Shown here: positions 23,365-53,031 of the stretch, one piece after another
Numbering within the stretch: position 1 is the first letter of the stretch
Layout: each line of letters opens with the position of its first letter
Source: Planctomycetes bacterium GWF2_41_51
Lineage (GTDB): Bacteria > Planctomycetota > Phycisphaerae > Sedimentisphaerales > UBA12454
Direction of reading: 5' to 3'
NCBI GenBank assembly: GCA_001825665.1
Contig: MHXZ01000087.1
Span: forward strand, 62,001 to 126,000
DNA length: 64,000 nt
Translations under genes and position numbers: made by a program
The notes under the pieces: model-generated
What the model was told of the DNA's origin: nothing
What the model saw: only the letters and a program-made list of their open reading frames with translations
The model's database searches: none

Positions 23365-23438
23365 GCGCCCGTAGCTCAATTGGATAGAGTCACGGACTTC
23401 GAATCCGAAGGTTGCAGGTTCGAGTCCTGCCGGGCGCA
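23365..23438 (+). tRNA. tRNA-Arg (anticodon TCG)
   Basis: A 74-base cloverleaf is visible. The 7-bp acceptor stem is GCGCCCG/CGGGCGC. The anticodon loop CTTCGAA has T33 and the anticodon TCG at 23399-23401. The T arm is GCAGG-TTCGAGT-CCTGC and the discriminator base is A. CCA is not encoded. A tyrosine recombinase gene lies 110 bases downstream and reads towards the tRNA, so its 3' half is a likely attachment site. Confidence 0.95.
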
Positions 23439-23548
23439 ATTCATAACATCATAATTAGTAAGCAGTTATGTTTATCAGCTTATTTGCTTATTACCCCAAA
23501 AAGGGACGCTGCAACAAAACTGCAACAGAATCTGACTTTGGCACCTTA

Positions 23549-24682
23549 TCAAAAAGTTGCTCTCGCACGGTCAACAAGGTTATTGTTGACAGCCAGATAA
23601 AACTTCCTCGTGGTTTCAAATGTTGAATGCCCCGCCAAATTCATAACCTCAAATTCGCTAAGCCCTCGTTCAAGCCATCTGCTCAAACAAGTTCTTCTAA
23701 GGTCATGAAATTCAAAATCTTTAAGACCAGCCATCTTTAATATGTTCTGGAACTGTCGGGTAAAATTATTTATTGGGCATTTACCGTGTTCTTCGAACCA
23801 TTTACCTGATTTACGAACATTTCGGATGTAGTCATATCGTTCAGAAGGGACAAATACATAAGGATAACCCTCGGATACAATACTTTGCAATTCAGCTAAC
23901 ATTGTTACTACTTGATCAGTCAAAGGCAGCTTCCGCCTGTCTGTGTCCTTGATTCGCCATAACCAGGTAAAATCTGAATCCGGCTTTGGTGAAACCTCAA
24001 TTGTCTTTTTATCAAAGTCGATATCACGCCAAGTGATGTTGAGAAGTTCACCTCTTCGCATTGCGGTGCATAGAGCTAATTTGATAAGTAATTCCCATTG
24101 AAGGTAATTCTTCGTTGCCTGATATTGTGTTGCTGCTTTTATCAGCGTTTCACAATCTTGCGGACTCAAAATACGCACCAGTTTTTTAGCTACTTTCGGC
24201 TGCTTGATAAAATGCAATGGGTTTTCTTCAAGTTGTCTACGTTCTAATGCTAACTGAAATATCCTTTTAAGATGTCGAAGTTTTTTACCTACAGTTGCGG
24301 GTGAATTTCCTTTTTCCAAAAAATGTTGCAAAAAGTATTCGCCATCCTGATGTTTGACATTCAAATAATCAATGTCGCCGATGCATTTAATAAAATCTCG
24401 CATAGCCATTTTTGCTTCTCGAAGAGTGCTTTCTCTGACTTGATGCTTTGTTCTTTTGGTGTAATCCCCAATAAGCTGGCTTAATCTCATTGATTCCGGA
24501 CCAACATAATTATTCGTAAGTTCATTTTCCAGTTCAGAACATTGTTTTAAAGCTTTTCGCTTATCAGCATGACCTAAAGATTTTTGCTTTCGTTTGCCGT
24601 TAGAGTCAAAATAAATCATATAATATGTGAAAGAGCGGCCATCAGAAGATGGTCTCTGCCAGAGCGTTACCAGCTTTTTCAT
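23549..24682 (-). CDS. Tyrosine recombinase / integrase of the tRNA-Arg-linked element
   Basis: This 377-aa phage-type integrase has three parts. An N-terminal arm-binding region comes first ('DGRSFTYYMIYFDSNGKRKQ'). A SAM-like core-binding domain occupies about 60-150. The catalytic domain keeps all the key residues: Arg in 'TAMRRGELLNITWRDID', Lys in 'WRIKDTDRRKLPLT', 'FHDLRRTCLS' (H-x-x-R), 'AGHSTFETT' (His) and the nucleophile Tyr in 'KFYLAV'. It ends 110 bases from tRNA-Arg, the usual position for an integrase that uses the tRNA 3' end as attB. It is the last gene of the - strand element operon, or is separately expressed behind the palindrome at 24734. Confidence 0.93.
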   Translation of the reverse strand: MKKLVTLWQRPSSDGRSFTYYMIYFDSNGKRKQKSLGHADKRKALKQCSELENELTNNYVGPESMRLSQLIGDYTKRTKHQVRESTLREAKMAMRDFIKCIGDIDYLNVKHQDGEYFLQHFLEKGNSPATVGKKLRHLKRIFQLALERRQLEENPLHFIKQPKVAKKLVRILSPQDCETLIKAATQYQATKNYLQWELLIKLALCTAMRRGELLNITWRDIDFDKKTIEVSPKPDSDFTWLWRIKDTDRRKLPLTDQVVTMLAELQSIVSEGYPYVFVPSERYDYIRNVRKSGKWFEEHGKCPINNFTRQFQNILKMAGLKDFEFHDLRRTCLSRWLERGLSEFEVMNLAGHSTFETTRKFYLAVNNNLVDRARATF

Positions 24683-24733
24683 ATTGTCATTCCTTTCTGA
24701 CTTATGAAACTGGTTAGGCTCGGATTAACCCAA

Positions 24734-24753
24734 ACCATATTATATAATATGGT
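24734..24753. promoter_or_regulatory. Perfect 20-bp palindrome between the integrase and Xis-like genes
   Basis: ACCATATTATATAATATGGT is identical to its reverse complement. It lies in the 88-base gap between the Xis-like gene and the integrase start. A nearby GGTTA...TAACC pair adds to the dyad symmetry. It is likely an operator or an integrase/Xis binding site controlling excision. Confidence 0.5.
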
Positions 24754-24770
24754 CGATATTAGCGCAAGTA

Positions 24771-25037
24771 TTATTTTGCAGCAATTGTTTTGGTTCTGAT
24801 CCATTCCACAATGGCCTCTCGCGGATAAAGAGCTTTTCCGCATATATGAATTCTTGGCAAACCGTGCATACGTTTAAGATTTTCAATAACATTATGATAA
24901 TCTTCCGAATTACTGATTTGAGGAATCCTTAGAAAAATTATCAATTCTTCCTCTGTCATTAAATCAGGAAAAATTTCTGGTCTTTGAGACCGAACTTTAA
25001 CATTGTCCATAACAGCATTGTTGATTTCATTCTGCAT
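24771..25037 (-). CDS. Excisionase-like helix-turn-helix protein
   Basis: This 88-aa protein has the winged HTH_17/Xis layout: 'LMTEEELIIFLRIPQ', a recognition helix around 'IENLKRMHGLPRI', then the wing 'CGKALYPREAIVEWIRTK'. In these proteins the wing strand and the EW-helix end are very well conserved. It overlaps the primase gene by 11 bases and precedes the integrase. It fits a recombination directionality factor that controls excision of the element, or a small transcriptional regulator. Confidence 0.75.
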   Translation of the reverse strand: MQNEINNAVMDNVKVRSQRPEIFPDLMTEEELIIFLRIPQISNSEDYHNVIENLKRMHGLPRIHICGKALYPREAIVEWIRTKTIAAK

Positions 25038-26061
25038 TGTTATTTTTCAGCTTTGCATAAAAACAATTTTGATTTTTACAATATTTTTTCAACACCTGAT
25101 TATCACAGCCGGCAAATCCAGGATGCTCAATGGCAAACTCAGTTATTCGTTCAATACTATCCAGATCTCTGATAGGATTGCGGTTGTCAATATTCCCCAA
25201 TCTCTCCACTATTTCATAATAGTGCATATTCAAGTAGCTATAGTATCTTGCCAACAGCAAATATGTGTCATGCCTGATGCCATCAGGAAGAATCGTTTTT
25301 TCAATTTCTTTTATACATGGCGGTATGCGCCAGCCGTGTTTAAATTTTATGTTCAATTTTTTTATAGATGAAAATTGGTTGTTTTTATTTTTCATACATT
25401 TTATTGCTTCGCGATACCAATGAATTGCAGTCGCAGATGGTTTAGAGTTACAAAATGATTCCTCCGGTCTTGGTGATTTTGAAATTTCTAAAATTCCGGA
25501 AACATCAATGTCCCTCAATTCTTCAAAAGTCAGAGGAATTTTATACAAATTACTTTTGCTGTTAATTGAATTGGATAACCTGAAAATTCTTTTATTTGTA
25601 TAAACAGCTTGATCGATGAATTTTGCTCCTGACTGTTCTGCTTTTTTAGCCATTTTTTTATACATAGGGAGTATATGTGGTGAATAAAATGCACTAAAAA
25701 CTTCACATGGTACAATTACATGAAAACCCTTATTTCCACTGAAAAAGATTTCGATTTGATTCTCCGTCAATTTAATCCTGTCCATTATCATTTCACATAA
25801 ACAGATAGCACTTTCTTTAGCTGCTGATAGGTTATCTTTGGAATCAATGTCAAAGAACATCGAGATAATAAATTCAGAATCAAATGAAGGTTCAAGATGC
25901 TGAGAAATTCCGTAAAAAATATCTGTGTTATTGAATTGTTTTCTGAAATTTTCAATTACCTGAATATTTTCAGAATGTATGAATTGCCCCCTTATCATTT
26001 TGCCATTTGGCAAAAGTGCTGCATATTCATTCCATTTATATGATTTATTGTCTTGTGTCAT
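25027..26061 (-). CDS. Archaeo-eukaryotic primase (AEP) small-subunit-like protein
   Basis: The 344-aa protein carries the AEP catalytic triad. D71-x-D73 lies in 'ISMFFDIDSKD', the nucleotide-binding motif is 'FFSGNKGFHVIVP' (H114), and a third acidic residue (D149) in 'FIDQAVYT' is followed by 'RIFRLSNSIN'. This is the PriS pattern FDxD...SGxxGxH...D...RlpxS. The C-terminal half ends in Cys/His residues ('HPGFAGCDNQ', 'CKNQNCFYAK') that could bind metal. No helicase is fused to it. It may prime replication of the element or have been co-opted for another nucleotidyl-transfer role. It shares one base with the lipoprotein gene (TAATG). Confidence 0.82.
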   Translation of the reverse strand: MTQDNKSYKWNEYAALLPNGKMIRGQFIHSENIQVIENFRKQFNNTDIFYGISQHLEPSFDSEFIISMFFDIDSKDNLSAAKESAICLCEMIMDRIKLTENQIEIFFSGNKGFHVIVPCEVFSAFYSPHILPMYKKMAKKAEQSGAKFIDQAVYTNKRIFRLSNSINSKSNLYKIPLTFEELRDIDVSGILEISKSPRPEESFCNSKPSATAIHWYREAIKCMKNKNNQFSSIKKLNIKFKHGWRIPPCIKEIEKTILPDGIRHDTYLLLARYYSYLNMHYYEIVERLGNIDNRNPIRDLDSIERITEFAIEHPGFAGCDNQVLKKYCKNQNCFYAKLKNNNAE

Positions 26062-26594
26062 TATTTTTTCACAGACATATAGAAGGATACCATTTTGGGC
26101 GGAAACAAAGCTGACGATGGAAAAGTTAAAAGGCTCATATTTTTAGCCTGCCTGAAATAATGTTCTGCTGAGTTGATATCGCCTCTCTGGTAGTAAATAG
26201 CCCCTAAATATATCAAAGATTCCACCTGAATATATTCAGATGTATTTTCATTAATAAGTTTTTGAAACATTGCTTCTGACTTTTCCCAGTTTAAATTTTG
26301 GTAATCATAAATAGCATCGTCTCTCATTGATTGATAATCAGGCTCTTTTGAAACAGGTTCTACTATGACAGGCTGTGGTTTAGGGGCAGGCTGATAAGTT
26401 TTAACTACCGGAGTATTATGGATAACAGGTTTTTGCTTTAGAGCCTCATCTGCAATTGCGGTACCCACGATAACAGCACCAACAGTCAATACTTCAACAC
26501 AACCTGCAATCATCAAAGAAGCAGGGATAATAACTATGAAGCATAGTATCTGTATTACTTTACAAGATATTTTTTTATCATTCATTACTGACAT
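26061..26594 (-). CDS. TPR-containing lipoprotein
   Basis: The start is set at the ATG at 26594, 7 bases after a GGAGG. The 177-aa product has a signal peptide ending in a lipobox ('ASLMIAGC', Cys at about 32), then a Pro-rich linker ('HTPVVKTYQPAPKPQP'). The tetratricopeptide-like region has the pattern 'LIYLGAIYYQRGDINSAE'. It is probably a membrane-anchored scaffold of the operon's complex. Its start lies inside the end of the J-like gene, so the two are coupled. Confidence 0.72.
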   Translation of the reverse strand: MSVMNDKKISCKVIQILCFIVIIPASLMIAGCVEVLTVGAVIVGTAIADEALKQKPVIHNTPVVKTYQPAPKPQPVIVEPVSKEPDYQSMRDDAIYDYQNLNWEKSEAMFQKLINENTSEYIQVESLIYLGAIYYQRGDINSAEHYFRQAKNMSLLTFPSSALFPPKMVSFYMSVKK

Positions 26595-27174
26595 ATACAG
26601 TCCTCCTGTCAAAATTAACTTTTATCAAGAGACGTCCTCTCCGTTTGATTTTAAAATATTTATCTATTAGTTTTTCATTGGACCTGAGAACCAGGTAATG
26701 TTTGCCTTCCATAACTTTAAAAGCTTCTATTTGGCCGCTTTGGCCGATTTTCCTGCCATCGAGTTCAACATCACACCATGGAACTGATAGAACACGAAAC
26801 TGAGCCATTCTTTTTTGCTTGTAATTGCTGTAAGCACTCATACAAACAATTAAAATTATAAGCATAAAAAAGCCTGCAATCCAAATCCCTGCTATTTCAA
26901 TCTGTTTTTGATTGATTGAAGTGTAAGCCGGTGCAGAAGCATATTGTGGCATTGATTGCTGATGGCTGGCGCCCGCATACGTTCTCTTTAAACTTTCCCA
27001 AGCTGTAATAAGCTGGGTTATTTTTCTTTCTGCCTCATGTCTTACTGACATGTCATTACCGGGTACTATTTTGTTTCTGAGTTTCTGGAGCGTCTTCTCA
27101 TATACCTGTTTTGTTTCATCAAAACCGGCATTGTCATTGATACCCATAATTTGCCTGGCTTCCAATTCAGTCAT
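26578..27174 (-). CDS. J-domain-like membrane protein with C-terminal PEGA-like domain
   Basis: The ATG at 27174 follows AAGGGAA; a longer in-frame start adds an unlikely tail. The 198-aa protein begins with a helical region ('EARQIMGINDNAGFDETKQV', 'ITQLITAWESLKRTYAG') that has the layout of a DnaJ domain, although the HPD motif is absent. One transmembrane helix (about 95-115, 'IWIAGFFMLIILIVCM') follows. The C-terminus, with 'WCDVELDGRKIGQSGQ', looks like a PEGA beta-domain. Presence beside an Hsp70 and a GrpE-like gene supports a co-chaperone role. The missing HPD is a reservation, since HPD normally triggers the Hsp70 ATPase. The start overlaps the vWA gene by 8 bases. Confidence 0.6.
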   Translation of the reverse strand: MTELEARQIMGINDNAGFDETKQVYEKTLQKLRNKIVPGNDMSVRHEAERKITQLITAWESLKRTYAGASHQQSMPQYASAPAYTSINQKQIEIAGIWIAGFFMLIILIVCMSAYSNYKQKRMAQFRVLSVPWCDVELDGRKIGQSGQIEAFKVMEGKHYLVLRSNEKLIDKYFKIKRRGRLLIKVNFDRRTVYVSNE

Positions 27175-27907
27175 TGGAATTTCCCTTAAAAACAATACCT
27201 GTGGCCAGTTTTTCATAATGACTTACGAGAGATTGTGTATCCCTGAAAAACCAATAATGTGTAAAACCGTTTAAATCGGTAGTCGCGACTTTTCTTAAAA
27301 GCTCTTCATTTACTGCTGATGGATCACCGCCAATGCCTATTACCTCAATCAAAACGGTCTGATTCTTTAATCTTTTAGCAATAGTTACAGGATTTCCGCC
27401 ATGGCCATCTGTTAAAAGCAGAATGCGTTTTAATCTTTGAATTTCGCCACAATAGCTGCCGGCAAAAATCTTTTCAGCATCCTTCAATCCTTCGGCAATA
27501 TCTGTTCCGCCAGTAGCTTTCAGTTGTTTTAAATGTTTTTTTACCAATTCGATTTGTTTTATCGGTGTCAGTTCAAGGACAATTTCTGCCGTATCATTGA
27601 ATGAAATCAGTCCTATCCTGTCATCAGGTGAACAAGAATATCTTTTATATGCAAACGCTTCTGCGGCCTTTACACTTGCACCTAAACGGCTTGGCTGGCA
27701 GTCAGTCCAACTCATGCTTCCTGAAATATCGTGAATACATAATGTGTCACAGACATGGTTCGTTAAATCCGGAAGACAATACTCAAATCGCTTTTGCGGT
27801 GTTCCTATTTTGATACTTTCAGGCAAATAGGGACACGTTGTACATGCCCCTATAAACCGCTGTATAGCGTTATCAATTTTTTTAAGTGAATTTAAAATTT
27901 TTAACAT
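27167..27907 (-). CDS. von Willebrand factor A domain protein
   Basis: This 246-aa protein has a complete MIDAS metal site: D60-x-S62-x-S64 ('HDISGSMSW'), T135 ('KATGGTDIAEGL') and D167 ('LLLTDGHGG'). It is preceded by a Cys-rich N-terminus ('ACTTCPYLP', then two further Cys). No signal peptide is seen, so it is probably cytosolic. In bacteria such free vWA proteins often work with ATPases as adaptors. Here it sits between Hsp70 and the J-like gene, spaced by 19 and -8 bases. Confidence 0.88.
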   Translation of the reverse strand: MLKILNSLKKIDNAIQRFIGACTTCPYLPESIKIGTPQKRFEYCLPDLTNHVCDTLCIHDISGSMSWTDCQPSRLGASVKAAEAFAYKRYSCSPDDRIGLISFNDTAEIVLELTPIKQIELVKKHLKQLKATGGTDIAEGLKDAEKIFAGSYCGEIQRLKRILLLTDGHGGNPVTIAKRLKNQTVLIEVIGIGGDPSAVNEELLRKVATTDLNGFTHYWFFRDTQSLVSHYEKLATGIVFKGNSND

Positions 27908-27926
27908 TTTCAGCCTTTCTTTCGTA

Positions 27927-29456
27927 TTAAATCTGGTTATTTTCAGCTGAACCAGGGTTGTAATTAAAAGTCACATTCACAGGTTTATTCAACAGAGCAT
28001 CACATACAGTGATTTCAAGAAGGCCTTCTTCTGTGTAACGCCCCTTTACATTGATTCTGTCAGAATCTGTGTCAGATGGCCGGATAGGTACTGAGAATTC
28101 TCGCAAAAGCGTGGACTCTTCGCTTAACTGACCATCTTTGCCCTGGACGATTTTAACACTCACAGAATTTTGGCCGAAATACAGTGGAGCAAATTTTCGC
28201 TCAAATTCGTGCGGTAACTGAGTATTTTCAGGTACGATTACATAGTTATATTCCTTGTCATCATTTTTATGAGTTTTTCTGGCCGCAACACATATTGCGT
28301 GAGCCGCAACTGATTGTATCTTGATGTCAGAGGCAAGATAAATGTGCTCTCCAATCTTTATAGCTGTGTCGCTATCACCGAAACAAACCTGTGCCCATAT
28401 CGCAGCGCCTTTGGCAATTGCAAAATCGGGGTCTGTGTCTTTGGAAGGCTCAATACCGAAAACATCCTTGACCATTTCAGGAACATGAAATAATCGACTA
28501 CTGCCTCCGACCAAAATTACTTTAGAAATTTGAACATTTTTCTCCTGTAATTTTTCAAATACTCTTTTACAGCAACCAATAAATCTTTCATCAACAGATC
28601 TGCATATGTCTAAAAACATTTTACGTGTTAGTTTAATAGCTACTCTTTTGCCTTCGGCTTCAGCAACAAGCATGACTTCTTCACGTCTTGCGAGCATTTC
28701 TTTTGCCAGTCTTGCCTTATCGAGATTCGAATAAAATGTCGCCAAATCTTTTTCGGCAGAGATTTCAAAACCTGATGCTTTTGCCTGCCCGCACTTAAAT
28801 TGAAGTATTGACTCATCATAATTACCACCTCCAAGTTCTGCATCACCATCAGTGATAGTTGCCTTTGTAATGCTGGCATCAATATTAAGAACAGTTATGT
28901 CGAGTGTTCCGCCGCCAAAATCGATGACGACGATTATTTCCTTATTTCCTTTTTCCAGGCCATAATAAAGTGCAGCTGATACAGGCTCATCCAGAAGTTT
29001 TATTTTTGTAAAACCTGCTTTTTTTGCAGCCGCGATTGTATGGCTTCTGGCAATCTCATCAAAATAAGCAGGATTTGTAATAACCACATACTTAATTTCA
29101 CAACCAAGATACTGCTCTGCTGATTTTTTAAGATAACTTATAATCTCAGCTGAAAAGTATATTGCGGTAATATCTTCTCCGGCGGGTGATTTTAATAATG
29201 GTATAGGTATGCCATTCTCACCCACCTTACCCATCTGCCTTTTGCCAAATTGCATAACGATATCTGGTCTCAATGATAAATCAGGTAGAGCAGCCTTGCC
29301 AACAACTGGTTTTCCGTTTGCCCACGAAACAACGCTGGGTGTTTTAAGGTCTCCATCTAAATTTGGAATTACTTCTACAATACCGGCATCATTTATATGG
29401 GTAACTTCACTGAACGTTGTACCTAAATCAATTCCTATAAATTTTTCCTTTTTCAT
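27927..29456 (-). CDS. Short Hsp70 (DnaK-like) chaperone
   Basis: The ATPase domain is intact over about residues 1-360: 'IGIDLGTTFSEV' (phosphate 1), 'VIDFGGGTLDITVL' (phosphate 2), 'VILVGGSSRL' (adenosine) and the connect region 'LLDEPVSAALYYG'. At 509 aa it is about 100-130 residues shorter than housekeeping DnaK. It keeps a beta substrate-binding part ('RINVKGRYTEEGLLEITVCD') but lacks the helical lid and an EEVD-like tail. Lid-less Hsp70s bind and release clients quickly. It lies 11 bases after the GrpE-like gene, forming a dedicated chaperone pair. Confidence 0.92.
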   Translation of the reverse strand: MKKEKFIGIDLGTTFSEVTHINDAGIVEVIPNLDGDLKTPSVVSWANGKPVVGKAALPDLSLRPDIVMQFGKRQMGKVGENGIPIPLLKSPAGEDITAIYFSAEIISYLKKSAEQYLGCEIKYVVITNPAYFDEIARSHTIAAAKKAGFTKIKLLDEPVSAALYYGLEKGNKEIIVVIDFGGGTLDITVLNIDASITKATITDGDAELGGGNYDESILQFKCGQAKASGFEISAEKDLATFYSNLDKARLAKEMLARREEVMLVAEAEGKRVAIKLTRKMFLDICRSVDERFIGCCKRVFEKLQEKNVQISKVILVGGSSRLFHVPEMVKDVFGIEPSKDTDPDFAIAKGAAIWAQVCFGDSDTAIKIGEHIYLASDIKIQSVAAHAICVAARKTHKNDDKEYNYVIVPENTQLPHEFERKFAPLYFGQNSVSVKIVQGKDGQLSEESTLLREFSVPIRPSDTDSDRINVKGRYTEEGLLEITVCDALLNKPVNVTFNYNPGSAENNQI

Positions 29457-29467
29457 TTTTACTTTCC

Positions 29468-30076
29468 TTAATTAATGGTTTCTGAATTTTTAGAATAACG
29501 GTATATTTTCACACGTGCAGGGGTGATTACTTTGCCGCGGTAGAGAATGCCTGGTGTTATAGTTTTATTTATTTTCGTATGCAGGTCTGGATATTCAGTT
29601 TCCTCATAGCCACAAACAGTATGTTTAGCAGTGTCAAAACAATCTCCTTCCAATGGCATGATTTTCTCAATGCCAAGATATGCCAATTTATCATGTGCTA
29701 ACTGCAATGATATATCGATCTCGCTTGAAAGCTTTACAGCGTTTTTTTCTGAAACTGATTTTAATTGCCGAATTTCATCATATAAAAAGACAACTGTTTC
29801 AATCGCCGGATTTAAGGCGTGACGTTCTATATTATTATTCAGTAATTCTGCTGTTTGTTTCTGGCATGCACAGGTAATTTCAAGACACTGTGTAAAACTT
29901 TTTTCAAGTTGAGAAATAGTTTCATTAAGTTTTGTTATTGTCAGGCAATTTGCATACGCTGTATCCTCAAAAGATTTAAGCCGGTTCAATAAATAAATAT
30001 AAAATAAAACCTCACAAAAAGAGAAAGTATTCAATGGTGTTGGGAGATTGTTTTCATTATTAAAATTCATACTCAA
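29468..30076 (-). CDS. GrpE-like nucleotide exchange factor
   Basis: This 202-aa protein has a central coiled coil (about 35-110, with 'LEKSFTQCLEITCA' and 'NPAIETVVFLYDEIRQL'). The C-terminal beta-wing is recognisable by 'GIEKIMPLEGDCFDTAKHT', 'ITPGILYRGKVITPARVKI' and the preceding 'TEYPDLH'. This matches GrpE closely at the Hsp70-contacting end. It is probably the specific exchange factor for the adjacent short Hsp70. Its start overlaps the ATPase stop by 4 bases. Confidence 0.82.
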   Translation of the reverse strand: MSMNFNNENNLPTPLNTFSFCEVLFYIYLLNRLKSFEDTAYANCLTITKLNETISQLEKSFTQCLEITCACQKQTAELLNNNIERHALNPAIETVVFLYDEIRQLKSVSEKNAVKLSSEIDISLQLAHDKLAYLGIEKIMPLEGDCFDTAKHTVCGYEETEYPDLHTKINKTITPGILYRGKVITPARVKIYRYSKNSETIN

Positions 30077-32166
30077 TCCTTTACAAAATCAGCTAAAAGT
30101 TTTATATCGATAACCTGATTAATATTTCTCTGGGAAAGTATTTCTTTGACTTTTTTAGCAAACGCACCGTCTCTGCATATAAGAGTGAATGGTGTGTTTT
30201 CAGAAATTAGCATCGCAAGATACTTTTCAATGCTGTCAACTTCGTGAGCTTCTTTTGAAATACCAACATTGTAAAAATGCCTTTCACCGGTTTTTCTGTC
30301 AATTGACGCTGCATCAGGCCTTAAACCATTGATATCGACTTCAAATTTAATATCAAGGCCAAGATTTTTGACATAGTCCTCAAGAAGCATTGCTGCCAGT
30401 TCATGCTCAAAATCACCATTGGTTAAAGATTTGGGTTTATAGACACCCTTTGCATTGAGAATATTCCAGCCATTGACAGTAATTTCATAAAAGCATAACT
30501 GACCGCCAACTCTGCCTGTTGAAAATCTATGGCCGCATATTAAACCTAATGACTCAAGCCTGCTTACAATTCGTCTTGCCTGGGTTCTGTTCCAGCCCAT
30601 TTGCTGGAATAATTTTGTTGCTTGTTTAGGCCTGCCTGTAGCAATTGCGACAAGTATCGCTATATGACTTGATGATAATACTAAATTTTCAGTCTCTGGC
30701 TGTTTATCAGTTGGATTTCCAGCAGTTGAATCAATATTTATAGTAGATGGGATATATTTTCGGCCTGTAACTCTGCTGAGAAATATATCTGCAACCGCTT
30801 TACGCATATCATCAGAGCAGGTAAGTGGTATATTGGGTACTGCAAAAGTACCGTACACTGGTTTGTGCCATATTGAAGAATTAAATATTATGGCTTCACC
30901 GCGCTTAAGAACTTTTGATTTTTCAGCCTGTGTTAAATTTGTGTTAATCATATCGCAGATAAAATTAGAATTTTCCTGGGGCAGACCGAGGACTACAAAG
31001 CAACTAATATTCTGTCGTGCTATTTCACCGAGCCCTGAAAGCGTATGAGTAATAAGAATCACTCCCATGCCAAGAGCATGTCCCATAAACATATTTTCTG
31101 TGATGGCATTTATTCCGCCCGGTGTTTCATAATCACGCTGTTTATGGACACCAGAAGTAATATCATCTAATACAAAAATACATATTATTGTGTTATTCCC
31201 CTGATTATGAAGCCGCTTGCAATATTCCCATCGCATCATAAAGGTTATAAGGAAGTTTAAATGCTCTGAAGCAAGCGTCTCAGCTTCTATGACCGCCAAG
31301 CCGGGTGTGGAAAACAAAACTTCTAGGAAATTGCTATTGGTATAATCAAAAATTCCTTCTGTGTTTTCATGCAGGTCCTGCAATGAGAAAAGAATGGATT
31401 CGCGGTAAAGATTCTCACGTGTAGAAGGATGGCATTTTTGATTTTCCAGATATTCCACAAACTGCCGAAGTTTTGCATAATTACCCGCCGGGCAAGTATC
31501 CTGCAGTTCATTCGATTTGATGTTCATATATCGTTGAGAGGACATTTTGCCATAGCACGATGCGGTTATTTTGGATAATTCATTATTCCATATCTTTGTA
31601 GAAACACTGTCAGGAGGCTGGCAAAATGGCAGTTGAAGCTCATTAAGTCTTAAAATATTTACAAGACCATAAAGTTGAGGAACACATAAAAATCCGCGAA
31701 ATTCTCTTTTTTTACAGAAGGCAATTATTCTCGCATTTTGCAGAAATTTCGGATTTGACAATGGATTTTTAACAAAGGTGGTTTTTCCCTGACCTGTAGG
31801 CGCTATTACAAGTGCGTTGCGGCAGAGTTGGCTTATTGTCCATCCGAATAAATCTCCTGTCGGCATTTGTATTAACTGTATAAAATCATCAGGAGGAATT
31901 AAATGGTTTTTCGCGGGGTAGTTAGGCCAGAAACAATCACCTGAGGTTGCGAAAAGTTTTGTTTGCCGGTTTACTACAATGTCAATAATTTCCTGACAGT
32001 CTTTATCAGCAGGATCATCCATAGCCATTTTTATTAACTCAATATTTGCAGGATTATCATTCAGACGCAGATCAGACCTGTCCGTAAGAAGACTGGCCAA
32101 TTCAGAGGTATTCGATTTCCTGAATTTATTCGGAATCTTCGAATTTTTAGGGTCTCTGATCAGCAT
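30073..32166 (-). CDS. HerA/FtsK-type P-loop ATPase with winged helix and degenerate nuclease-like C-terminus
   Basis: The 697-aa protein has a P-loop at about 122-130 ('IAPTGQGKTTF') and a Walker B strand ending in two Asp ('CIFVLDDITSG', near 345-350). Between them is 'VIEAETLASEHLNFLITFMM', as in the HerA/VirB4/TraG-like pumping ATPases. Residues ~510-570 look like a winged helix ('IATGRPKQATKLFQQMGW', 'ARRIVSRLESLGLI'). The last ~100 residues hold 'GLRPDAASIDRKTGER' and a restriction-nuclease-like fold in which catalytic Glu/Lys are not clear. The same architecture recurs at 56135. It may pump DNA or unfolded protein. The start overlaps the Zn-protein stop by one base. Confidence 0.78.
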   Translation of the reverse strand: MLIRDPKNSKIPNKFRKSNTSELASLLTDRSDLRLNDNPANIELIKMAMDDPADKDCQEIIDIVVNRQTKLFATSGDCFWPNYPAKNHLIPPDDFIQLIQMPTGDLFGWTISQLCRNALVIAPTGQGKTTFVKNPLSNPKFLQNARIIAFCKKREFRGFLCVPQLYGLVNILRLNELQLPFCQPPDSVSTKIWNNELSKITASCYGKMSSQRYMNIKSNELQDTCPAGNYAKLRQFVEYLENQKCHPSTRENLYRESILFSLQDLHENTEGIFDYTNSNFLEVLFSTPGLAVIEAETLASEHLNFLITFMMRWEYCKRLHNQGNNTIICIFVLDDITSGVHKQRDYETPGGINAITENMFMGHALGMGVILITHTLSGLGEIARQNISCFVVLGLPQENSNFICDMINTNLTQAEKSKVLKRGEAIIFNSSIWHKPVYGTFAVPNIPLTCSDDMRKAVADIFLSRVTGRKYIPSTINIDSTAGNPTDKQPETENLVLSSSHIAILVAIATGRPKQATKLFQQMGWNRTQARRIVSRLESLGLICGHRFSTGRVGGQLCFYEITVNGWNILNAKGVYKPKSLTNGDFEHELAAMLLEDYVKNLGLDIKFEVDINGLRPDAASIDRKTGERHFYNVGISKEAHEVDSIEKYLAMLISENTPFTLICRDGAFAKKVKEILSQRNINQVIDIKLLADFVKD

Positions 32167-32585
32167 TAATCCAACTCCCAGATTTTTTTGAAAATTCTTT
32201 TAAAAGAAAATTTGCTTTCATCTTCACACGATTTACAAACCGCTATCTCTTTGGTTTCTTCATCATCAGATTTTGTTATTTTACCTTTGCAATTACGGCA
32301 GTAATACCTTCCGCAATTTTCACAGGTTAAAACATTTTCGAAATGGTAAAGCCCCAGACAGCCGGAGCATTCTCTTATATCCTCAATCTTTTCAGGAATC
32401 CGACCATCTGCTAACGGCGGAAGAATTTCTTTTTCGTATTTTTTCCTTAAAATGTTGTTTTCCATGACACAGACAACATATTTTCTAAACTCAACTGTCT
32501 GGCCTGACAGAGTTTGAAAATATTCTATTGATTCTGAGATTTTGCCAGGCATTTGATCTGATATATTGTGCAGAATATTAATCAT
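32166..32585 (-). CDS. Zinc-binding protein with RING/FYVE-like Cys pairs
   Basis: The 139-aa product has four CxxC pairs in its C-terminal half: 'CSGCLGLYHF', 'LTCENCGRYYCRNCKGK' and 'AVCKSCEDES'. This spacing resembles cross-braced zinc fingers such as FYVE/RING or double zinc ribbons. The N-terminal half is helical with no known motif. It shares one base with the ATPase start (TAATG), which is the tightest coupling possible and suggests a partner protein or adaptor for the ATPase. I do not recognise a family. Confidence 0.7.
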   Translation of the reverse strand: MINILHNISDQMPGKISESIEYFQTLSGQTVEFRKYVVCVMENNILRKKYEKEILPPLADGRIPEKIEDIRECSGCLGLYHFENVLTCENCGRYYCRNCKGKITKSDDEETKEIAVCKSCEDESKFSFKRIFKKIWELD

Positions 32586-32594
32586 ATAATTCTC

Positions 32595-32783
32595 CTACCA
32601 GGGATTTGCCAAAAATCGTGAAAAAACCCATCCTGTGACACGAATACACAGCACGATCCCAGTAAATCCAATACAACATGCTGCGATAATAATCATTATG
32701 ATTATTGGTATTCTGACTATACCGGCACACATCTTTATGATAATTTGCAGTAAGTCTGAATTTTGCGTTTGGTTTATTGCCAT
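32595..32783 (-). CDS. Small hydrophobic membrane protein
   Basis: This is a 62-aa protein from the ATG at 32783; a start six codons earlier is possible. Nearly all of residues 12-50 are hydrophobic ('IVRIPIIIMIIIAACCIG'), enough for one long or two short transmembrane helices. It lies between the Trp-Pro repeat microprotein and the Zn protein, 9 bases from the latter. A role as membrane anchor for the complex is plausible. Confidence 0.6.
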   Translation of the reverse strand: MAINQTQNSDLLQIIIKMCAGIVRIPIIIMIIIAACCIGFTGIVLCIRVTGWVFSRFLANPW

Positions 32784-32845
32784 AATAATATTCCTTTGCA
32801 TATTTATTTCATTTTTATGACTTTGTTGAAATCGAAATTCATGTT

Positions 32846-33013
32846 TTATCCCATTGGAGGAATTTTTAATCCGATATCCTTGCCTACGTCTCCCATATCA
32901 GGCCAATCGTCCATCGCATTTGGCCAGTCGTCACCTGTTGGCCAATTATCCATCGCAGTGGGCCATCTATCTGACATATTTGGGTAATCTGATAACTCTT
33001 CATTTTTTGACAT
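32846..33013 (-). CDS. 55-aa microprotein with Trp-Pro tandem repeats
   Basis: An ATG immediately follows the TAA of the 169-aa gene (TAAATG), behind a strong AGGAGG. The frame runs to TAA at 32846. The core is a degenerate tandem repeat of about 6-7 residues: 'DRWPTAM', 'DNWPTG', 'DDWPNAM', 'DDWPDMG'. The protein is strongly acidic. The repeat is also visible in the DNA. I know no family of this kind. The tight coupling and ribosome-binding site make it a convincing gene despite its small size. It could be a linear binding motif array recognised by another member of the operon. Confidence 0.7.
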   Translation of the reverse strand: MSKNEELSDYPNMSDRWPTAMDNWPTGDDWPNAMDDWPDMGDVGKDIGLKIPPMG

Positions 33014-33523
33014 TTATTTCCTCCTGCGTTTATCTTTCTTAAGTTTTGCCTTTTGCTTTTCCGGCAGGTAAATGTTTATTTGGGGCGTTTGGACATCTAT
33101 GCATCTGCTGCTATACGGATGATAAATTTTCTCTTCCCCATTTATCATTCCAGCCAACATTGCATTTTCATAGCCTGAGATAACAGCAACCACATCTAAA
33201 AAGAAAATTCCATCTTTATTCCACCAACCGCCAATTAGTCCACCTTTGCTATATATTGCAGACAGATTTATACACAACCATTCAATCAAGTCTGAAAGCT
33301 TTGGATCAGTTTTAAAATTTTTCCCATGTTCGCGCTGACCTACAAGATAAATTTCTGGAGAAAAGGCAGTTTTAAGCTGCAAATTAATGATATTGAATGT
33401 AAAACCGGATGGATGCTTCTGTATTGCGGTTTTGAAACCTTTTGCAATATTCTGAAGAAATAAATCCGCAGTTAATGTTACAAGCATTTCTCTGTAATCT
33501 GGTCTTTTAATTTTCATATTCAT
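33014..33523 (-). CDS. Unknown 169-aa protein
   Basis: I do not recognise this protein. The body is mixed alpha/beta ('LVTLTADLFLQNIAKGF', 'DGIFFLDVVAVISGYENAM') and could be a small globular enzyme or binding protein. 'GGLIGGWWNKDG' is a Gly/Trp-rich turn. The tail is very basic ('KQKAKLKKDKRRRK') and may bind nucleic acid. A second ATG two codons in is equally possible. It is followed at once by the microprotein, with no spacer. Confidence 0.6.
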   Translation of the reverse strand: MNMKIKRPDYREMLVTLTADLFLQNIAKGFKTAIQKHPSGFTFNIINLQLKTAFSPEIYLVGQREHGKNFKTDPKLSDLIEWLCINLSAIYSKGGLIGGWWNKDGIFFLDVVAVISGYENAMLAGMINGEEKIYHPYSSRCIDVQTPQINIYLPEKQKAKLKKDKRRRK

Positions 33524-33603
33524 GGTTAAATACCCGTAAAATTTCTGTATTTATGGCTAAAACTGTTTTTCGCCTTTCACTATTAAACGCGATTTACGTA
33601 TTT

Positions 33604-34149
33604 TTACGCTTTTTTACGTGCCTTATTTTTTTGATATTGCTCCATTTTCTTTTTAGCTCTATAGAATGTTTCGCTTGCTGAACTTGGGGCAATACCGATT
33701 ATTTGGCTGATTTTTTTGAAAGTAAGTCCGTCCCTGATTTTTAGAGTAGCGATTCTCCACTCGCATTCTGAAAAGATGATTGAGCAATTTTTGTAAAGCG
33801 TGAAAATGTCATCAGAGCGAATTCTGTCTATCTCTTTCAAATCTGCATAATCGAATTTAATTTGGCGTTTTCCATTCACATCAACAATATTATGCAATAA
33901 ATCGCCGTAATATTTAATCTGAGAATGAGCGCCTGTATTCTCACTTGGAAGCTGAGATTCTAATAAATCGCATCCATTGCAATGCCCTCGATTTTCACAA
34001 TTATTACATGGGCTTTGATTTGCTGTATCCTTCTCATTTAAGACTCTGAAACATGCTTGTAAAAGTATAGGAAGTGTCTGACGAATAAGAACTTTCAGTT
34101 CTGAATCTGAACATTTTGTGATGTCAAAGTTTTTGAACTCGTCAAGCAT
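33604..34149 (-). CDS. Sigma-factor-like (region 4) regulator with a four-Cys cluster
   Basis: From the ATG at 34149 the product is 181 aa. The C-terminus is a sigma-70 region 4-like helix-turn-helix ('GLTFKKISQIIGIAPSSASE', about 129-172), close to ECF/LuxR-type DNA-binding domains. A clear sigma region 2 is not seen. Residues 48-60 form C-x2-C-x5-C-x2-C ('CNNCENRGHCNGC'), a likely metal site that may sense redox or metal state. It is the first gene of the long - strand operon and therefore the best candidate for its regulator. Confidence 0.65.
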   Translation of the reverse strand: MLDEFKNFDITKCSDSELKVLIRQTLPILLQACFRVLNEKDTANQSPCNNCENRGHCNGCDLLESQLPSENTGAHSQIKYYGDLLHNIVDVNGKRQIKFDYADLKEIDRIRSDDIFTLYKNCSIIFSECEWRIATLKIRDGLTFKKISQIIGIAPSSASETFYRAKKKMEQYQKNKARKKA

Positions 34150-34312
34150 AACATATTTGCCATGTTTAATTTGGTAATTAATTTTCTTTAGTTTTAAAAT
34201 TAGCAAAACATATAATGCTTTGTCAAAACAAGAGTTAACGGAATGTGTTGTAATTTTGCTGTGAGCATACTAATGAGGCAAATCTATAAAATTAAAGGAT
34301 TTACAGAATTAC

Positions 34313-34384: not shown

Positions 34385-34765
34385 TTATGCGACAGAATAG
34401 TTCTTTTGCATTTCTTTTAGAAAATCCACTTGTTCTCTGTCAGATAGCCTTTCTGTGAACCAGACTCTTTGATCCCACATAGCAATTTGATATGGAGGGT
34501 CAAAAGAAAATCCAAAATAGGGTGAATGAATTCCTTTCAGATGATTTTTTTGTAACTCGAAAACCTGAAGAGCTAAACCCTTTAGTCCTCCCAAATCTCT
34601 ATGAATTTTTATAGGGTGATTATGTTGCAATCCTGTTTTCTCTCCCCATAACAATTGTCTTCCATTTGCGGCACTGTCTGCAACATAGTATAATTCACAT
34701 TGCAAGTCATTTTCATTTTGTTTATACTTCATTCGAAATATGTGATAGTGATTATCTGTTTCCAT
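34385..34765 (-). CDS. Unknown 126-aa protein
   Basis: I do not recognise this protein. It starts 'METDNHYHIFRMKYKQNEN' and is rich in aromatic residues. The middle has 'HRDLGGLKGLALQVFELQ' and a hydrophobic turn 'FGFSFDPPYQIAMWDQ'. No signal peptide or membrane segment is present. It lies between the element operon and the divergent giant TPR gene and is read away from the latter. It could be an accessory gene of either module. Confidence 0.5.
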   Translation of the reverse strand: METDNHYHIFRMKYKQNENDLQCELYYVADSAANGRQLLWGEKTGLQHNHPIKIHRDLGGLKGLALQVFELQKNHLKGIHSPYFGFSFDPPYQIAMWDQRVWFTERLSDREQVDFLKEMQKNYSVA

Positions 34766-34892: not shown

Positions 34893-37800
34893 ATGGACAA
34901 ATTTTCTAATATCGAGGAATATAGAGAGCCAACAAAAGAGGAACATGAAAAGATTGTTCACTTCTTATGCAAAGAACATTTTCCCGAATCTATGAAGAAA
35001 CAAACAAGATTTTTTCATGAAGATGAACAAAAATATATTGAGCTTGAGCAATATGAAAGAAAAATTCTTCCTAATTATCTCAAGGCTGTATTGGAAAGCT
35101 TTAGCGTTGAATTCAGGATAATTTGTAAAAATATTGGCCATAAGGAATCTACAACTAATGTGTCAAGATTAACCAAAGCCATCAATTATTATCTAAAAGA
35201 ACTATGTAAAGAAAAAGGAGTCAGGCCGCCGATTCAATTATTTTTCTATCACAAAAATTATTCCGGCAGGGTTGTTAGCAATTTTAGATGTCATTTAGCT
35301 TGTGCGGAAGTTGGTACGCAGGATAACAACCGGCGCTATTCTTATAAGATTTGTCTCTTTGAAAAAGCTCAAAATGTCCTTGATTCCGGCAAAAAGCAAA
35401 CTGAAACAAAAGATAAAGTAATTAAACATCGGAGTGAAAATATTTTATGTTTACATAGTTCGGATCGCATTGGTTTGCGTAAGGCGATTTTGAAAGATCC
35501 TTTAGCTGACGCAGTTTCTTTAGAGGGCATTCATCATCCTGCTCATAATGAGATTTATAATCCAAATCAGCGCCTACGCATCGTTGGAAATCCTGGTTGT
35601 GGAAAGTCATTTTTTCTTTATCAACACCTTGCAACATTTAAAGATGCGGATATAGTAATTTTGACATCACTGGTTCTTACAGAGGTTGCCGAAGACCTTA
35701 GGCAATTGCGTCAGTCTGCCTGTCGCCCTTTGGTCATAATTATTGATAATTTGCATTATCATGTAGGAAAATTGCAATATTTCCCTGAAGTTTTGAGTAT
35801 TTTGCTGGGGCAATGCAAACACAACGAACAACCCGTAACGGTTTTGGTTACACATTGGAGTTCGGAACGATTGAAAATTGAACAAAGTATATCACAGTAC
35901 CATTGGGATTGCTGGGAATTTAAGGAAATCAATCTTGATAATCCACCACAAGAATTTATTTCAAAAATTGTTAAGTCGGTATGTGAGCATTTACTGATTG
36001 AAACTGATGAGGAGATGCAGAATGCTTTCGTACGGGAAATAATCAGATGGGAAAACACCCCAGCCTGCGCTGTTGCATCATTATGGTCGTATCGTAAAAA
36101 AAGTTTGAAAGGCAATGAGTTTTACTCAGTGGAACTTAAAGTACGGGAACGGTCTTGGCAGTATTTATTTAAAGAGCTTCAAAAGGAGAACGCTTCTGAA
36201 TGTATTACACTAATTAGGTCGCTTTCAGTTTCGCGGCGGTGTGCATCTAAATATGATTTAGCAACTATTCGAGAAATCGCTATTAAAGTCGGGAAAGAAT
36301 CTGACTCGGCTGTTGATTATGCGATAGAAAGACTCGAAGCTATGGGGTGGGTTAAACGAGATGGAGCTACACTTTATAGTCACGATCTACAGATATTTCC
36401 CTCAACAATCGGACTGCACAATGATAGTAAACCTTCACTCTTTTTAGAACGATTTAGCGAAATGATTATCAAAAATGAATTATTATCGTTGGAAACAGAT
36501 CGTATTACTGTATTGCATAATTTAAGTGAGATGTTTGAAGACATAGGGCAAATTCAAAAGTCGATTGAATTTAATAATATCATTCTTAATTGTGATTCTG
36601 AAAATGTAAGGGCACTATGTAATCGCGGGGCATTGCTTGTTAAGCATGGAAACATTGAAGAAGGTCTTTCGGATCTGCACAGGGCTACAGAAATTTCACC
36701 TGCTGATGTTAGAACAGCCCGAATTCGATATTTTACTTGTCACCATCTTGGACGCAGAGAAGATGCTGTTGAAACACTTCAGATACTTATGCAGAACTTG
36801 CACCCCGACTCACCAGATTTAGCTTTTGTTGCTCAAGCATTTGCAAATTTAAGGGAAACAAAACCTGCATTGAAATGTGTAAAGCAGTTTGTTCATACTA
36901 GACAAGATGATCCCGATGCATATGCTGTTTTTGCTCAAGTCCTCTGGTTGGCAGGTAAAAAGAAACAAGCAGAAACAATAATTGATCAGGCACTGAAGCG
37001 TTGGCCTAATGAGGGTAGATTACTATTTGTAAAGGCTGACTTCAAGAGGCGAACTCATATTGCAGAGAACATCCAAACCGCACTGCTATTAGCGGAAAAG
37101 GCTTTGCAAATAAAACCGAATGATCCCAATATATACACACTTGTAGCAATACTTAATCTGGAGGCAGGCAATATTAATAGAGGATCAGAAGTAGCGGAAA
37201 CAGGTACAGAACTATTTAAGTTTTGGCCCGACCTGCTTGCTGCTAGAGGGTTTGCTCTTGAACAACAAGGGAGATTTAAAGAAGCTTTATCGTTTTTGCT
37301 ACAGGCGAACGAAGAAAATGAAACTTTGTCAGAAACATATAGACCGTATTTTCTCCTTTGTCTAGGCAGAGTGTATTTGCGGCTCGGTGATAAGGTAAAT
37401 GCAGAGAACTACTTTGAACAGGCGGTGTCAGAAGGCGTGGACAAAACTGTTGCTACTATAGCTAAAGCAAAAACACTTCGTCTTACAGATAAAACCGAGG
37501 ATGCTATTCATGTTCTGGAAGAAGCGGTAAAAAATGTCAGCGATTCGCCTGACTTATGGACCACATTAGGCAATTATTATTTTTTATCAGGCCGTTATTA
37601 TCACTCAACTGAGGCTTTTAGAGCGGCAGGTAAGCTCAAGCCTAAAGACCCACAAATAATTTCTTTTTTAGGGGAATGTCTTATAATCGTTGGACGCCCC
37701 AAAGAAGCTCTGAAGGTTTGGAAGCAGGTTATAAAAATAAATCCAGAAGATGAGTATGCGTGGGGACGACTTGGAAGTTGTTTTTACGAATTATCCAAAT

Positions 37801-49097: not shown

Positions 49098-49313
49098 TTT
49101 TTACAAAAATTTATGAAGTATGAGAATACAAACAGTAAAATTTATAAATGATAAACTGATTTATATTTGTAGATTAGATAAATGTTTTATGAGCAATAAG
49201 ACCAAAAACCTTACGCCCTAAAAACATGAACAGAACCGGTCATATCCTGCACAGGGCGTCGACCACTTTTGTTCGTGTAATTGGGTGGAAAACTTATAAA
49301 GGGTCTTATTCTC

Positions 49314-50459
49314 ATGATTTGCCTGATGGAATTTAAAGAACAATATGAAAAAGCAAAAAAGCATCTTCTTGCTGATGAGTTAATTTGTAAAGCTAATAGA
49401 GATCTTTTGAAAGAATTCTTTGTATTTGAAGAATGGAAATTGAAACGGCAGAATGGCTTAGCAACGCTGGATAATTCCTGTTATAAAACACTTTCAGGTT
49501 ATGTCTACAAATTGAAAAAAGTAAATGATTGGTTCAAGAATAAGCCATGGAAAGATTTGACAAAAGAGGACATACAGAAAGTTTATGATGACCTGGAAGA
49601 TGGGATCATAAAGAACCAAAGGGGACAAAAATATGGGGACACTGCTGGTTATTATAGTAAGATTTTTCGGGGTAAGCCTTTCAAACTTGCAGGAAAGTCA
49701 GAGATAGCTGAAAATGTTCTGGAATACCATACTTCAATGAGCAACAAAGAAGTACGATTTGTTACTGAAGAAGAATTCAGAAAATTGGTTAGTGTCGTAT
49801 CAAATCCTGCACATCTTGCCCTGTTATGGTTGCAGTGGGATATTGGAGAAAATATTAACACTTTATTAGCTTTGACAAAAAATAATATTATAAAGCAGAA
49901 GAACCCACATACAAACGAGAATGAATATATAGTTAATCTGCCAAAAGCAAAAATCAAAAGGAGCCGAATAACACGAAGTGAGCCAACATTATATCCCGAA
50001 ACAGTAAGGTATTTAGATATGGTTCTTAATGGCCTCAAAGATAATGATAAAATATTCACATTTGAACATCGGCAGGCATTAAAAGTTATTCAAAATGCTT
50101 GCAGAAAATCAGGAGCTAAATGCATGCCAATCGGTGATGCAATTCGATGGAAGGACCTACGATCAGGTATGGCCTGTCATTTGTTAAAATCCGGATGGAC
50201 AAGGGATGAAGTAAATGCTCGATTGGGTCATACACCCTCATCAAAATCACTTAATGCCTATATCAACTATCTTGCAATCGATAGACATGCCCCAAAGAAA
50301 AGGCTCTTAACAAGCAATTTGCAAGAAGTTCAGAATGAGCTTGAAGAAGCCAGAAGGCGAGAAAAATTACAGGCAGAGCGTATTGAAAGACAACAAGAAG
50401 AACTTAGAGCATTGCAAATGAAAGTGGATGAGGTTCTCAGGCTAAAAGGAATAGCTTGA
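49314..50459 (+). CDS. Tyrosine recombinase-like protein with degenerate catalytic residues
   Basis: From the ATG at 49314 (or 49326) the product is about 381 aa. The SAM-like core-binding half is present (about 1-130). In the catalytic half, the first Arg is not in its expected place ('WDIGENINTLLALT' where family members have G-L/M-R). The HxxR box is 'RWKDLRSGMA' (Lys where His is usual), while GH ('ARLGHTPSS') and the nucleophile region 'NAYINYLA' are kept. A Gln/Glu/Arg-rich coiled coil follows at the C-terminus. It may be an inactive relic or a regulator of recombination, possibly marking an internal junction of the island. Confidence 0.7.
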   Translation: MICLMEFKEQYEKAKKHLLADELICKANRDLLKEFFVFEEWKLKRQNGLATLDNSCYKTLSGYVYKLKKVNDWFKNKPWKDLTKEDIQKVYDDLEDGIIKNQRGQKYGDTAGYYSKIFRGKPFKLAGKSEIAENVLEYHTSMSNKEVRFVTEEEFRKLVSVVSNPAHLALLWLQWDIGENINTLLALTKNNIIKQKNPHTNENEYIVNLPKAKIKRSRITRSEPTLYPETVRYLDMVLNGLKDNDKIFTFEHRQALKVIQNACRKSGAKCMPIGDAIRWKDLRSGMACHLLKSGWTRDEVNARLGHTPSSKSLNAYINYLAIDRHAPKKRLLTSNLQEVQNELEEARRREKLQAERIERQQEELRALQMKVDEVLRLKGIA

Positions 50460-50499
50460 TCAGATTTGAAGTCTGAACAAATGAAAAAAGAAAAATAAT

Positions 50500-51218: not shown

Positions 51219-51244
51219 GTTTGATTATAAAAAGGAAAAGATTC

Positions 51245-53022: not shown

Positions 53023-53031
53023 TTTTTCAAA

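Follow-up and report, generated by a model that had tools for sequence, protein, structure and literature searches.

Why should a short Hsp70 and a GrpE-like protein be encoded in one operon with a HerA-type ATPase, a von Willebrand factor A (vWA) protein and a tyrosine integrase? The question is raised by a stretch of 64,000 nucleotides (hereafter the window) from Planctomycetes bacterium GWF2_41_51 (GCA_001825665.1, contig MHXZ01000087.1, positions 62,001 to 126,000 of the forward strand), of the GTDB lineage Bacteria; Planctomycetota; Phycisphaerae; Sedimentisphaerales; UBA12454. An initial annotation, made from the letters of the window, had described here a complete private chaperone triad in a mobile element. 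The comparison of genomes gives good support to the view that the operon of HerA, Hsp70, GrpE, vWA and membrane proteins is the conserved backbone of a family of large elements that integrate at tRNA genes in Phycisphaerae, whereas its function is answered below in terms of lower and graded probability.

Gene order and co-divergence of the operon

In the window, thirteen codirectional genes of the minus strand, all of them open frames, run from 34206 to 23549 in the order (5' to 3') sigma-like regulator, a 169-amino-acid (aa) protein without a match in a family scan, a 68-aa protein with a single transmembrane (TM) segment (o68), zinc-finger protein, HerA, GrpE, Hsp70, vWA, J-like protein, TPR lipoprotein, archaeo-eukaryotic primase (AEP), excisionase (Xis) and integrase (Int). 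The feature had been drawn at 24771-34149; the operon is present as claimed, and its limits are corrected to 23549-34206 so that the integrase is included. From the zinc-finger gene to Xis the intergenic spacing is -50 to +19 bp, and 88 bp separate Xis from Int. Because of this spacing, translational coupling and a single transcript are likely from the zinc-finger gene to Xis, in agreement with the one operon of overlapping or closely spaced genes seen at first.

Relatives were sought with profiles built from few sequences. HerA was run against 161 genomes of the order, and vWA against 298 genomes of the class, with a match in 31, three of them weak. A third scan covered a collection of 84,980 species, was seeded by a 10-member vWA alignment with a single short peptide pattern, and was not exhaustive. 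The two genome collections overlap partly, some loci of the species collection being the same contigs as loci of genomes with a G handle; among those outside that set are L113, L115, L116, L123, L124, L125 and L129. The fetched loci were annotated by hidden Markov models (HMMs) built from gene clusters. As they had been retrieved through vWA or HerA, the independent result is the co-occurrence of the remaining genes, and many loci without the full gene order are interrupted by contig ends.

Hsp70 stands immediately ahead of vWA in 41 loci, the order HerA-GrpE-Hsp70-vWA is intact in 27, and an integrase on the same strand follows in about 25, the full conserved order being HerA-GrpE-Hsp70-vWA-(membrane proteins)-Xis-Int. 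Such adjacency beside integrases was the check that the initial annotation had proposed, and the homologues keep this order rather than being scattered in non-syntenic positions. Where contigs permit, Hsp70 is accompanied always by vWA and nearly always by HerA, which in L071 is placed downstream instead. The arrangement recurs across dozens of genera; the hosts are Phycisphaerae or other Planctomycetota, except for one metagenome-assembled genome of Hydrogenedentota (L125) and a 3-kb contig labelled Actinomycetota (L129). Chance adjacency is ruled out by the conservation of order in loci from the two collections.

The flanking genes recur as well. The HMM of o68 matches 23 loci, with the gene almost always upstream of HerA, and the zinc-finger gene immediately precedes HerA in L016, L035, L036, L069, L074, L091 and L123. 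TM79, a two-TM protein of about 75 aa, occurs in 19 loci, and two membrane proteins lie between vWA and Xis, TM95 (18 loci) and TM133 (14 loci). Orthologues of Xis lie immediately ahead of Int in L007, L017, L086, L113, L115 and others, open frames resembling the sigma-like regulator lie upstream of HerA in L089 and L090, and the AEP primase, with motifs FFDID and SGNKGFH, is optional, being present in five surveyed loci (the window, L016, L019, L087 and L091).

In a 53-row maximum-likelihood tree of Hsp70, the housekeeping DnaK proteins of 11 genomes group in a clade to themselves, which rules out relocated housekeeping copies, a possibility that the initial annotation had itself set against its idea of a system. 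The element Hsp70s fall into a group of 30 and a group of 6 that includes the window, the latter lying closer to DnaK and to a short Hsp70 encoded on the chromosome (L181, L182). Distances follow those of Hsp70 with r 0.92 for GrpE, 0.86 for vWA and 0.73 for HerA, and with r 0.34 for Int. The first three track Hsp70 closely and Int only weakly: the core is one unit, and its integrases are exchanged. The chromosomal short Hsp70 (~520 aa) clusters with a GrpE-like membrane protein and another membrane protein, without vWA (L181:5676-9938, L182:5373-10015), and the cluster adjoins gcv genes in G287; this Hsp70 is sister to the Hsp70 clade of the window, which may have arisen from it.

The window's own genome holds three copies of the module. 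The two further Hsp70-vWA-J-TM modules, on G000:C8 (L007:9189-14176, at tRNA-Asp) and G000:C79 (L008:5626-9152), have a lost or broken hsp70 5' part with vWA and J still open, and are decaying relatives of the window element. Another form is seen in L075, L076, L077 and L098, where an ~800-aa membrane protein and replication-relaxation-like genes (in L076 a PF13814 match at E 5e-4) come after Hsp70-vWA, and L076 and L098 have ParA-like genes near the pair; these loci are a different element type with the same chaperone pair.

The ATPase, the chaperone set and its substitute

HerA hexamers move DNA. The ATPase of the operon is assigned by sequence profile and predicted fold to the HerA/DndH branch: its profile matches HerA chains of the PDB at E 9e-20 to 5e-19, and its AlphaFold2 (AF2) model (mean pLDDT, the predicted local distance difference test, 78.7) is closest among solved structures to the SIR2-associated HerA (Foldseek, 4e-13), DndH (7e-12) and also DUF4297/HerA. 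The Walker A residues G125, G127 and K128 are invariant in the homologues. Alignment inspection indicates that the restriction-endonuclease-like domain at the C-terminus has lost the usual catalytic pattern in the window clade, and most of 18 loci encode, between HerA and GrpE, an endonuclease-fold-like protein of 120-150 aa with VDL..ExE motifs. No match to a NurA-family nuclease was obtained beside HerA, and Pfam and PADLOC scans of the operon gave no SIR2, DUF4297 or DndFG-type partner. A second integrase occurs elsewhere in the window (49281-58075, plus strand), followed after ~6 kb by another HerA-type ATPase (56135-58075) with EIETGK in its endonuclease-like C-terminus; a close copy of this ATPase (phmmer 2.6e-239), with a 392-aa open frame at a similar relative place, is carried by contig C8 of the same genome.

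The Hsp70 profile aligns to residues 1-513 of DnaK, that is, the nucleotide-binding domain (NBD) and the beta half of the substrate-binding domain (SBD), and the lid is missing. Across 25 homologues K72, E157, D179 and T184 never vary, and D10 hardly does. Because these residues, which match the catalytic set of DnaK, are conserved, the lid-less Hsp70 is expected to hydrolyse ATP. GrpE is, by profile, a genuine homologue, matched to PDB GrpE over nearly its full length (E 4.3e-10). The metal ion-dependent adhesion site (MIDAS) recognised earlier in the vWA protein is borne out by D60, S62, S64, T135 and D167, all invariant in 25 homologues.

The J-like protein can be recognised as a DnaJ homologue only at the family level, by profile. 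The window protein alone has no Pfam match, a homologue in L036 matches DnaJ at E 3.6e-4, and a seven-member profile matches PDB J domains at E 2.8e-5. The HPD motif, whose absence from the window protein had been pointed out, is missing in all seven members, with PG(N/Q/T) in that loop. A single-sequence AF2 model (mean pLDDT 64), used as supporting evidence only, has helices at 17-24, 32-48 and 56-81, a TM helix at 103-135 and a beta domain at 138-211 that looks PEGA-like by eye; Foldseek returns J domains at probability 0.85-1.0, but with E > 0.09, none significant. The protein probably serves as an inner-membrane anchor for Hsp70. J-like proteins are confined to the window's Hsp70 subclade and missing in most relatives, and were seen only beside HerA/Hsp70/vWA core loci in 159 genomes of the order. 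The TPR lipoprotein comes after every one of the four long forms (the window, L016, L036 and L082). Set beside a DnaK/DnaJ/GrpE system, the operon has the GrpE homologue and lacks both the Hsp70 lid and the HPD of the J domain. What stands of the chaperone triad is a coherent private chaperone and ATPase set on a mobile element; the word complete is only partly apt, since the J-like protein lacks HPD and is restricted to one subclade.

In L070, L072 and L099 a PP2C phosphatase and Ser/Thr kinases with FHA replace GrpE-Hsp70, while HerA and vWA are kept and an integrase adjoins. L099 encodes PP2C (E 1.3e-18), a kinase (E 7.5e-42) with FHA and a weak zinc-ribbon match, and vWA next to it, which is the composition of a TerY-P triad (vWA, PP2C and Ser/Thr kinase with zinc ribbon); L070 and L072 are assigned by homology. 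In L019:3034-6094, GrpE-Hsp70-vWA-AEP is followed by a kinase with a zinc ribbon and an FHA-like region and by a second vWA, so that both wirings are present. One HerA core wired to either a chaperone or a kinase/phosphatase switch amounts to a natural experiment, through which the shared role of vWA becomes testable.

Integration sites, islands and neighbouring genes

The statement that the operon ends in an integrase at tRNA-Arg proved accurate: tRNA-Arg(TCG) lies 111 bp from Int, and its 3' end faces Int. A tRNA abuts or overlaps the Int end in about 20 loci, the kinds being Arg, Asp, Thr, Met, Pro, Ser, Glu and Phe. A 48-bp identical copy of the tRNA-Arg end, without the tRNA 5' half, is found at G000:C11:2984-3031, and C11 is not joined to C87; because the copy is on that contig, the far end of the window's element is placed outside the window. 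In two complete genomes the tRNA-end repeat bounds 112 kb (G287; 87 bp, 97% identity) and 113 kb (G127; 52 bp, 87%). A search for short exact repeats as attachment (att) ends within 50-60 kb found none, whereas a whole-genome query with the tRNA did find them. Past the second repeat of G287 comes a further integrase with TM133 and TM95, a tandem element with a second att, so that islands grow in tandem; it is not certain that the 112-113 kb are one single element.

Inside the 112-kb island of G287, directly past the HerA operon, lies a CRISPR-Cas locus (G287:C1:2203480-2211717), which reads like type I-C by eye (Cas3, Cas5, Cas8c, Cas7, Cas4, Cas1) and is followed by ThiF-like and polysaccharide-degradation genes. 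In G127 the region past the operon (G127:C1:1633189-1786000) holds sulfatase, transporter, pseudopilin and transposase genes, and an IS21-like pair (L017:14687-16949) has cut the 5' part of HerA.

Other kinds of mobile element were considered. A type IV secretion integrative and conjugative element (ICE) is ruled out by the absence of a VirB4-family ATPase (PF03135) from seven host genomes carrying the core; ComEC was present in all eight host genomes examined. Phage origin is ruled out, HerA having no match in phage and plasmid records and the HerA and vWA profiles no relatives in IMG/VR; Hsp70 matches in phages are generic (29-31%). Of the plasmid vWA matches, two were inspected and rejected: one is an unrelated vWA whose neighbours are BREX, nuclease and helicase genes, the other a MoxR/BatA cluster.

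Divergent from the operon is a gene for a 1712-aa protein (window 34893-40031, plus strand) with a P-loop-like N-terminal part and a long TPR array, perhaps of STAND type. A homologue has the same place beside the homologue of the 126-aa gene in the G439 element (L081), and another lies upstream of HerA in L095; the gene is likely to be shared cargo.

Table 1. Coordinates of the operon and its adjoining features in the window
Feature	Position	Strand	Basis and remarks
tRNA-Arg(TCG)	23365..23438	+	ARAGORN; integration target; 3' end 23395-23442 = att core
Tyrosine integrase (Int)	23549..24682	-	Pfam PF00589 E 4.6e-23; arm and SAM-like domains
Excisionase-like helix-turn-helix (HTH) protein (Xis)	24771..25037	-	PHROG 668 HTH E 3.9e-7
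AEP primase	25027..26061	-	PHROG primase E 7.6e-30; NCBIfam PriS E 1.5e-8
TPR lipoprotein	26061..26612	-	Pfam TPR_2 E 1.6e-5; lipobox ...LMIAGC; orthologues L016, L036, L082
J-like (no HPD) - TM helix - beta domain protein	26578..27216	-	J-domain profile comparison, AF2
vWA protein, intact MIDAS (DxSxS...T...D)	27167..27907	-	Pfam VWA_2 PF13519 E 1.6e-16
Short Hsp70 (NBD + SBD-beta, no alpha lid)	27927..29456	-	Pfam HSP70 PF00012 E 6.6e-77
GrpE-like nucleotide exchange factor	29468..30076	-	Pfam GrpE PF01025 E 4.2e-10
HerA-type ATPase with Walker A GQGKT, a winged helix and, at the C-terminus, a degenerate restriction-endonuclease-like domain	30073..32166	-	Profile, fold
Zinc-finger protein (FYVE/zinc-ribbon-like)	32166..32585	-	Pfam FYVE E 2e-5, under cut-off
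Small single-TM protein o68	32595..32801	-	Hydrophobic segment; HMM
169-aa operon protein	33014..33523	-	Open frame
Sigma-70-region-4-like regulator, first operon gene	33604..34206	-	Weak: NCBIfam E 2.4e-4, PHROG E 2.8e-4
126-aa protein, adjoining region	34385..34765	-	phmmer 3e-48 in L081 (sister element of G439)

Possible functions and relation to known systems

It has been considered that HerA serves in DNA export or transfer and that its assembly is controlled by Hsp70, GrpE and vWA. This role, given an even chance here, is favoured because of the analogy with TdtA of a Thermus element, the added membrane proteins and chaperone switch, and hosts that lack VirB4 and have ComEC. Excision would be carried out by Xis and Int, in the window copy perhaps aided by the AEP primase. 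HerA would then form its complex on element DNA at the inner membrane, joined by small membrane proteins and the nuclease-fold partner, and would move double-stranded DNA, most likely outward to another cell. Hsp70 and GrpE may together form a switch, driven by ATP, through which the HerA complex is folded, loaded or taken apart, with vWA as their peptide-binding partner and the HPD-less J-like protein as a membrane tether; in sister elements the PP2C/kinase pair with vWA may do equivalent gating. The co-divergence of HerA, GrpE, Hsp70 and vWA and the coupled membrane genes are compatible with ATPase remodelling or transfer, short of proof.

A bolder proposal, put forward tentatively and with less confidence than the export role, is that these are a new class of integrative elements, in which a HerA hexamer and a few membrane proteins would move double-stranded DNA between Gram-negative cells without type IV secretion, under the control of lid-less Hsp70, GrpE and vWA that is swappable for kinase, phosphatase and vWA. 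If the pump does move DNA, the spread of ~110-kb islands without known conjugation genes would be explained, whose cargo in the two complete cases includes CRISPR-Cas and polysaccharide-degradation or sulfatase genes.

Several points weigh against the proposed role in transfer. ComEC is widespread among bacteria and thus lends it weak support. No relaxase or recognised transfer gene was seen, no systematic search for relaxases having been made. As the integrase tracks the core weakly, the core could be carried along as a passenger with a preference for int-proximal sites. Moreover, the closest solved structures of the ATPase belong to antiphage complexes, its best PADLOC match is mad8 (E 2e-11; membership of MADS was judged by PADLOC models only), and PP2C/kinase/vWA triads are linked to defence elsewhere.

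These last points lead to the main rival, a serious one, although it is less probable than the export role: an antiphage (conflict) module built on HerA and carried near int as cargo, with Hsp70/GrpE/vWA or PP2C/kinase/vWA as sensor and threshold switch. In this reading HerA and the endonuclease-fold protein would attack invading DNA, or the small membrane proteins would kill the cell. The kinase variant matches defence kinase models, the endonuclease-fold protein with VDL..ExE motifs lies between HerA and GrpE, and Kaur et al. described both switches as alternative modules of GTPase conflict systems (PMC7159879). However, SIR2, DUF4297, NurA and methyltransferase are not part of the conserved order, in the window clade the endonuclease-like domain has degenerated, and in intact main-form loci the block adjoins Xis/Int, often with the gene before Xis running into Xis, while the rest of the island varies.

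Improbable, though less so than simple proteostasis, is a role in element maintenance, whereby HerA, the primase and the nuclease-fold protein would replicate, segregate or resolve the excised circle, and the chaperones would act as DnaK/GrpE do on the initiator complex of a plasmid or phage, without intercellular transfer. Phage lambda replication, which uses DnaK/DnaJ/GrpE, offers a precedent, the primase shares the operon in the window and four other loci, and ParA-like genes stand beside Hsp70-vWA in L076 and L098. Nevertheless, most loci lack the primase, and it is hard to see what the conserved small membrane proteins and the lipoprotein would do in replication within the cytosol. That the operon is ordinary proteostasis cargo, a spare chaperone set protecting the host under stress, can practically be dismissed. 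In its favour, Hsp70 and GrpE are true homologues and the ATPase residues are kept. Against it, the Hsp70 has no lid and the J-like protein no HPD, Hsp70 is accompanied always by vWA and nearly always by HerA where contigs permit, and Hsp70 forms clades apart from DnaK and co-diverges with HerA.

The operon can also be compared with systems already described. In the crenarchaeal Ced system, the HerA-type ATPase CedB and small membrane proteins take part in DNA exchange; Ced is similar to the present family in this pairing, but it imports DNA and is chromosomal. The single NCBIfam match of the window's HerA is the DNA import ATPase CedB, at E 3.8e-4, a score that falls well short of the cut-off for that family. 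The integrative and conjugative elements of actinomycetes (AICEs, such as pSAM2) use Int, Xis, a primase or replication protein, an FtsK-type TraB translocase and small membrane proteins as their whole transfer set in Gram-positive hosts. The likeness lies in Int, Xis, primase, one translocase of the FtsK/HerA superfamily and small membrane proteins, and the difference in the chaperones, which AICEs are not known to have. With the HerA-nuclease defence complexes (SIR2/HerA, DUF4297/HerA, DptH of Dnd and mad8 of MADS), the family shares the ATPase fold and its best structural matches, whereas their effectors are missing, and HerA is bound instead to Hsp70/GrpE/vWA, membrane proteins and the Xis/Int order.

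The earlier impression that no named system corresponds to this gene set has held: searches of full-text literature, many subscription papers not being covered, yielded no account of HerA and an integrase combined with Hsp70, GrpE and vWA. Parts of the set are known from elsewhere. Type III-A CoCoNuTs and TerY-P triads combine Hsp70-like NBD/SBD, TerY-like vWA, PP2C and kinase, and some carry an FtsK/HerA-superfamily ATPase with inactive restriction-endonuclease folds (PMC11090510). CoCoNuTs have a McrBC-type GTPase and HEPN RNases, and their Hsp70 site is predicted to be very poor at ATP hydrolysis (PMC11090510), whereas the window family is without McrB/McrC and its Hsp70 keeps the ATPase residues. 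The GAP1-N2 GTPase conflict systems, for which a site of action close to the membrane is predicted, have HSP70 and GrpE with DnaJ or TPR, or kinase, PP2C and vWA, as alternative modules (Kaur et al. 2020, PMC7159879), the same two as found here. Their core consists of GTPase, GAP1 and FNIII, in contrast to HerA and Xis/Int here, where there is no GTPase and vWA also occurs with Hsp70; DO-GTPase, GAP1 and FNIII are absent from the conserved order and have no Pfam match in the window operon.

The closest experimental analogue is TdtA of Thermus thermophilus ICEth1, a HerA-like hexamer encoded on a 14.9-kb tRNA-integrated element, which is needed for DNA donation and is partly membrane-bound (PMC5365140). 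Both have integration at a tRNA 3' end with direct repeats (47 bp in ICEth1), a site-specific recombinase and, within the element, a HerA-superfamily ATPase of hexamer type in an operon with a nuclease partner, which in ICEth1 is NurA-like. The donation role of TdtA was shown experimentally, while a like role of the window's HerA is a prediction. The tdtA operon includes a restriction enzyme and a methylase, in place of which the window family has Hsp70, GrpE, vWA and small membrane proteins. Elements with a HerA pump are already known; what was found in no described system is an Hsp70/GrpE pair and a vWA protein tied, across dozens of genera, to a DNA-pumping ATPase on a mobile element.

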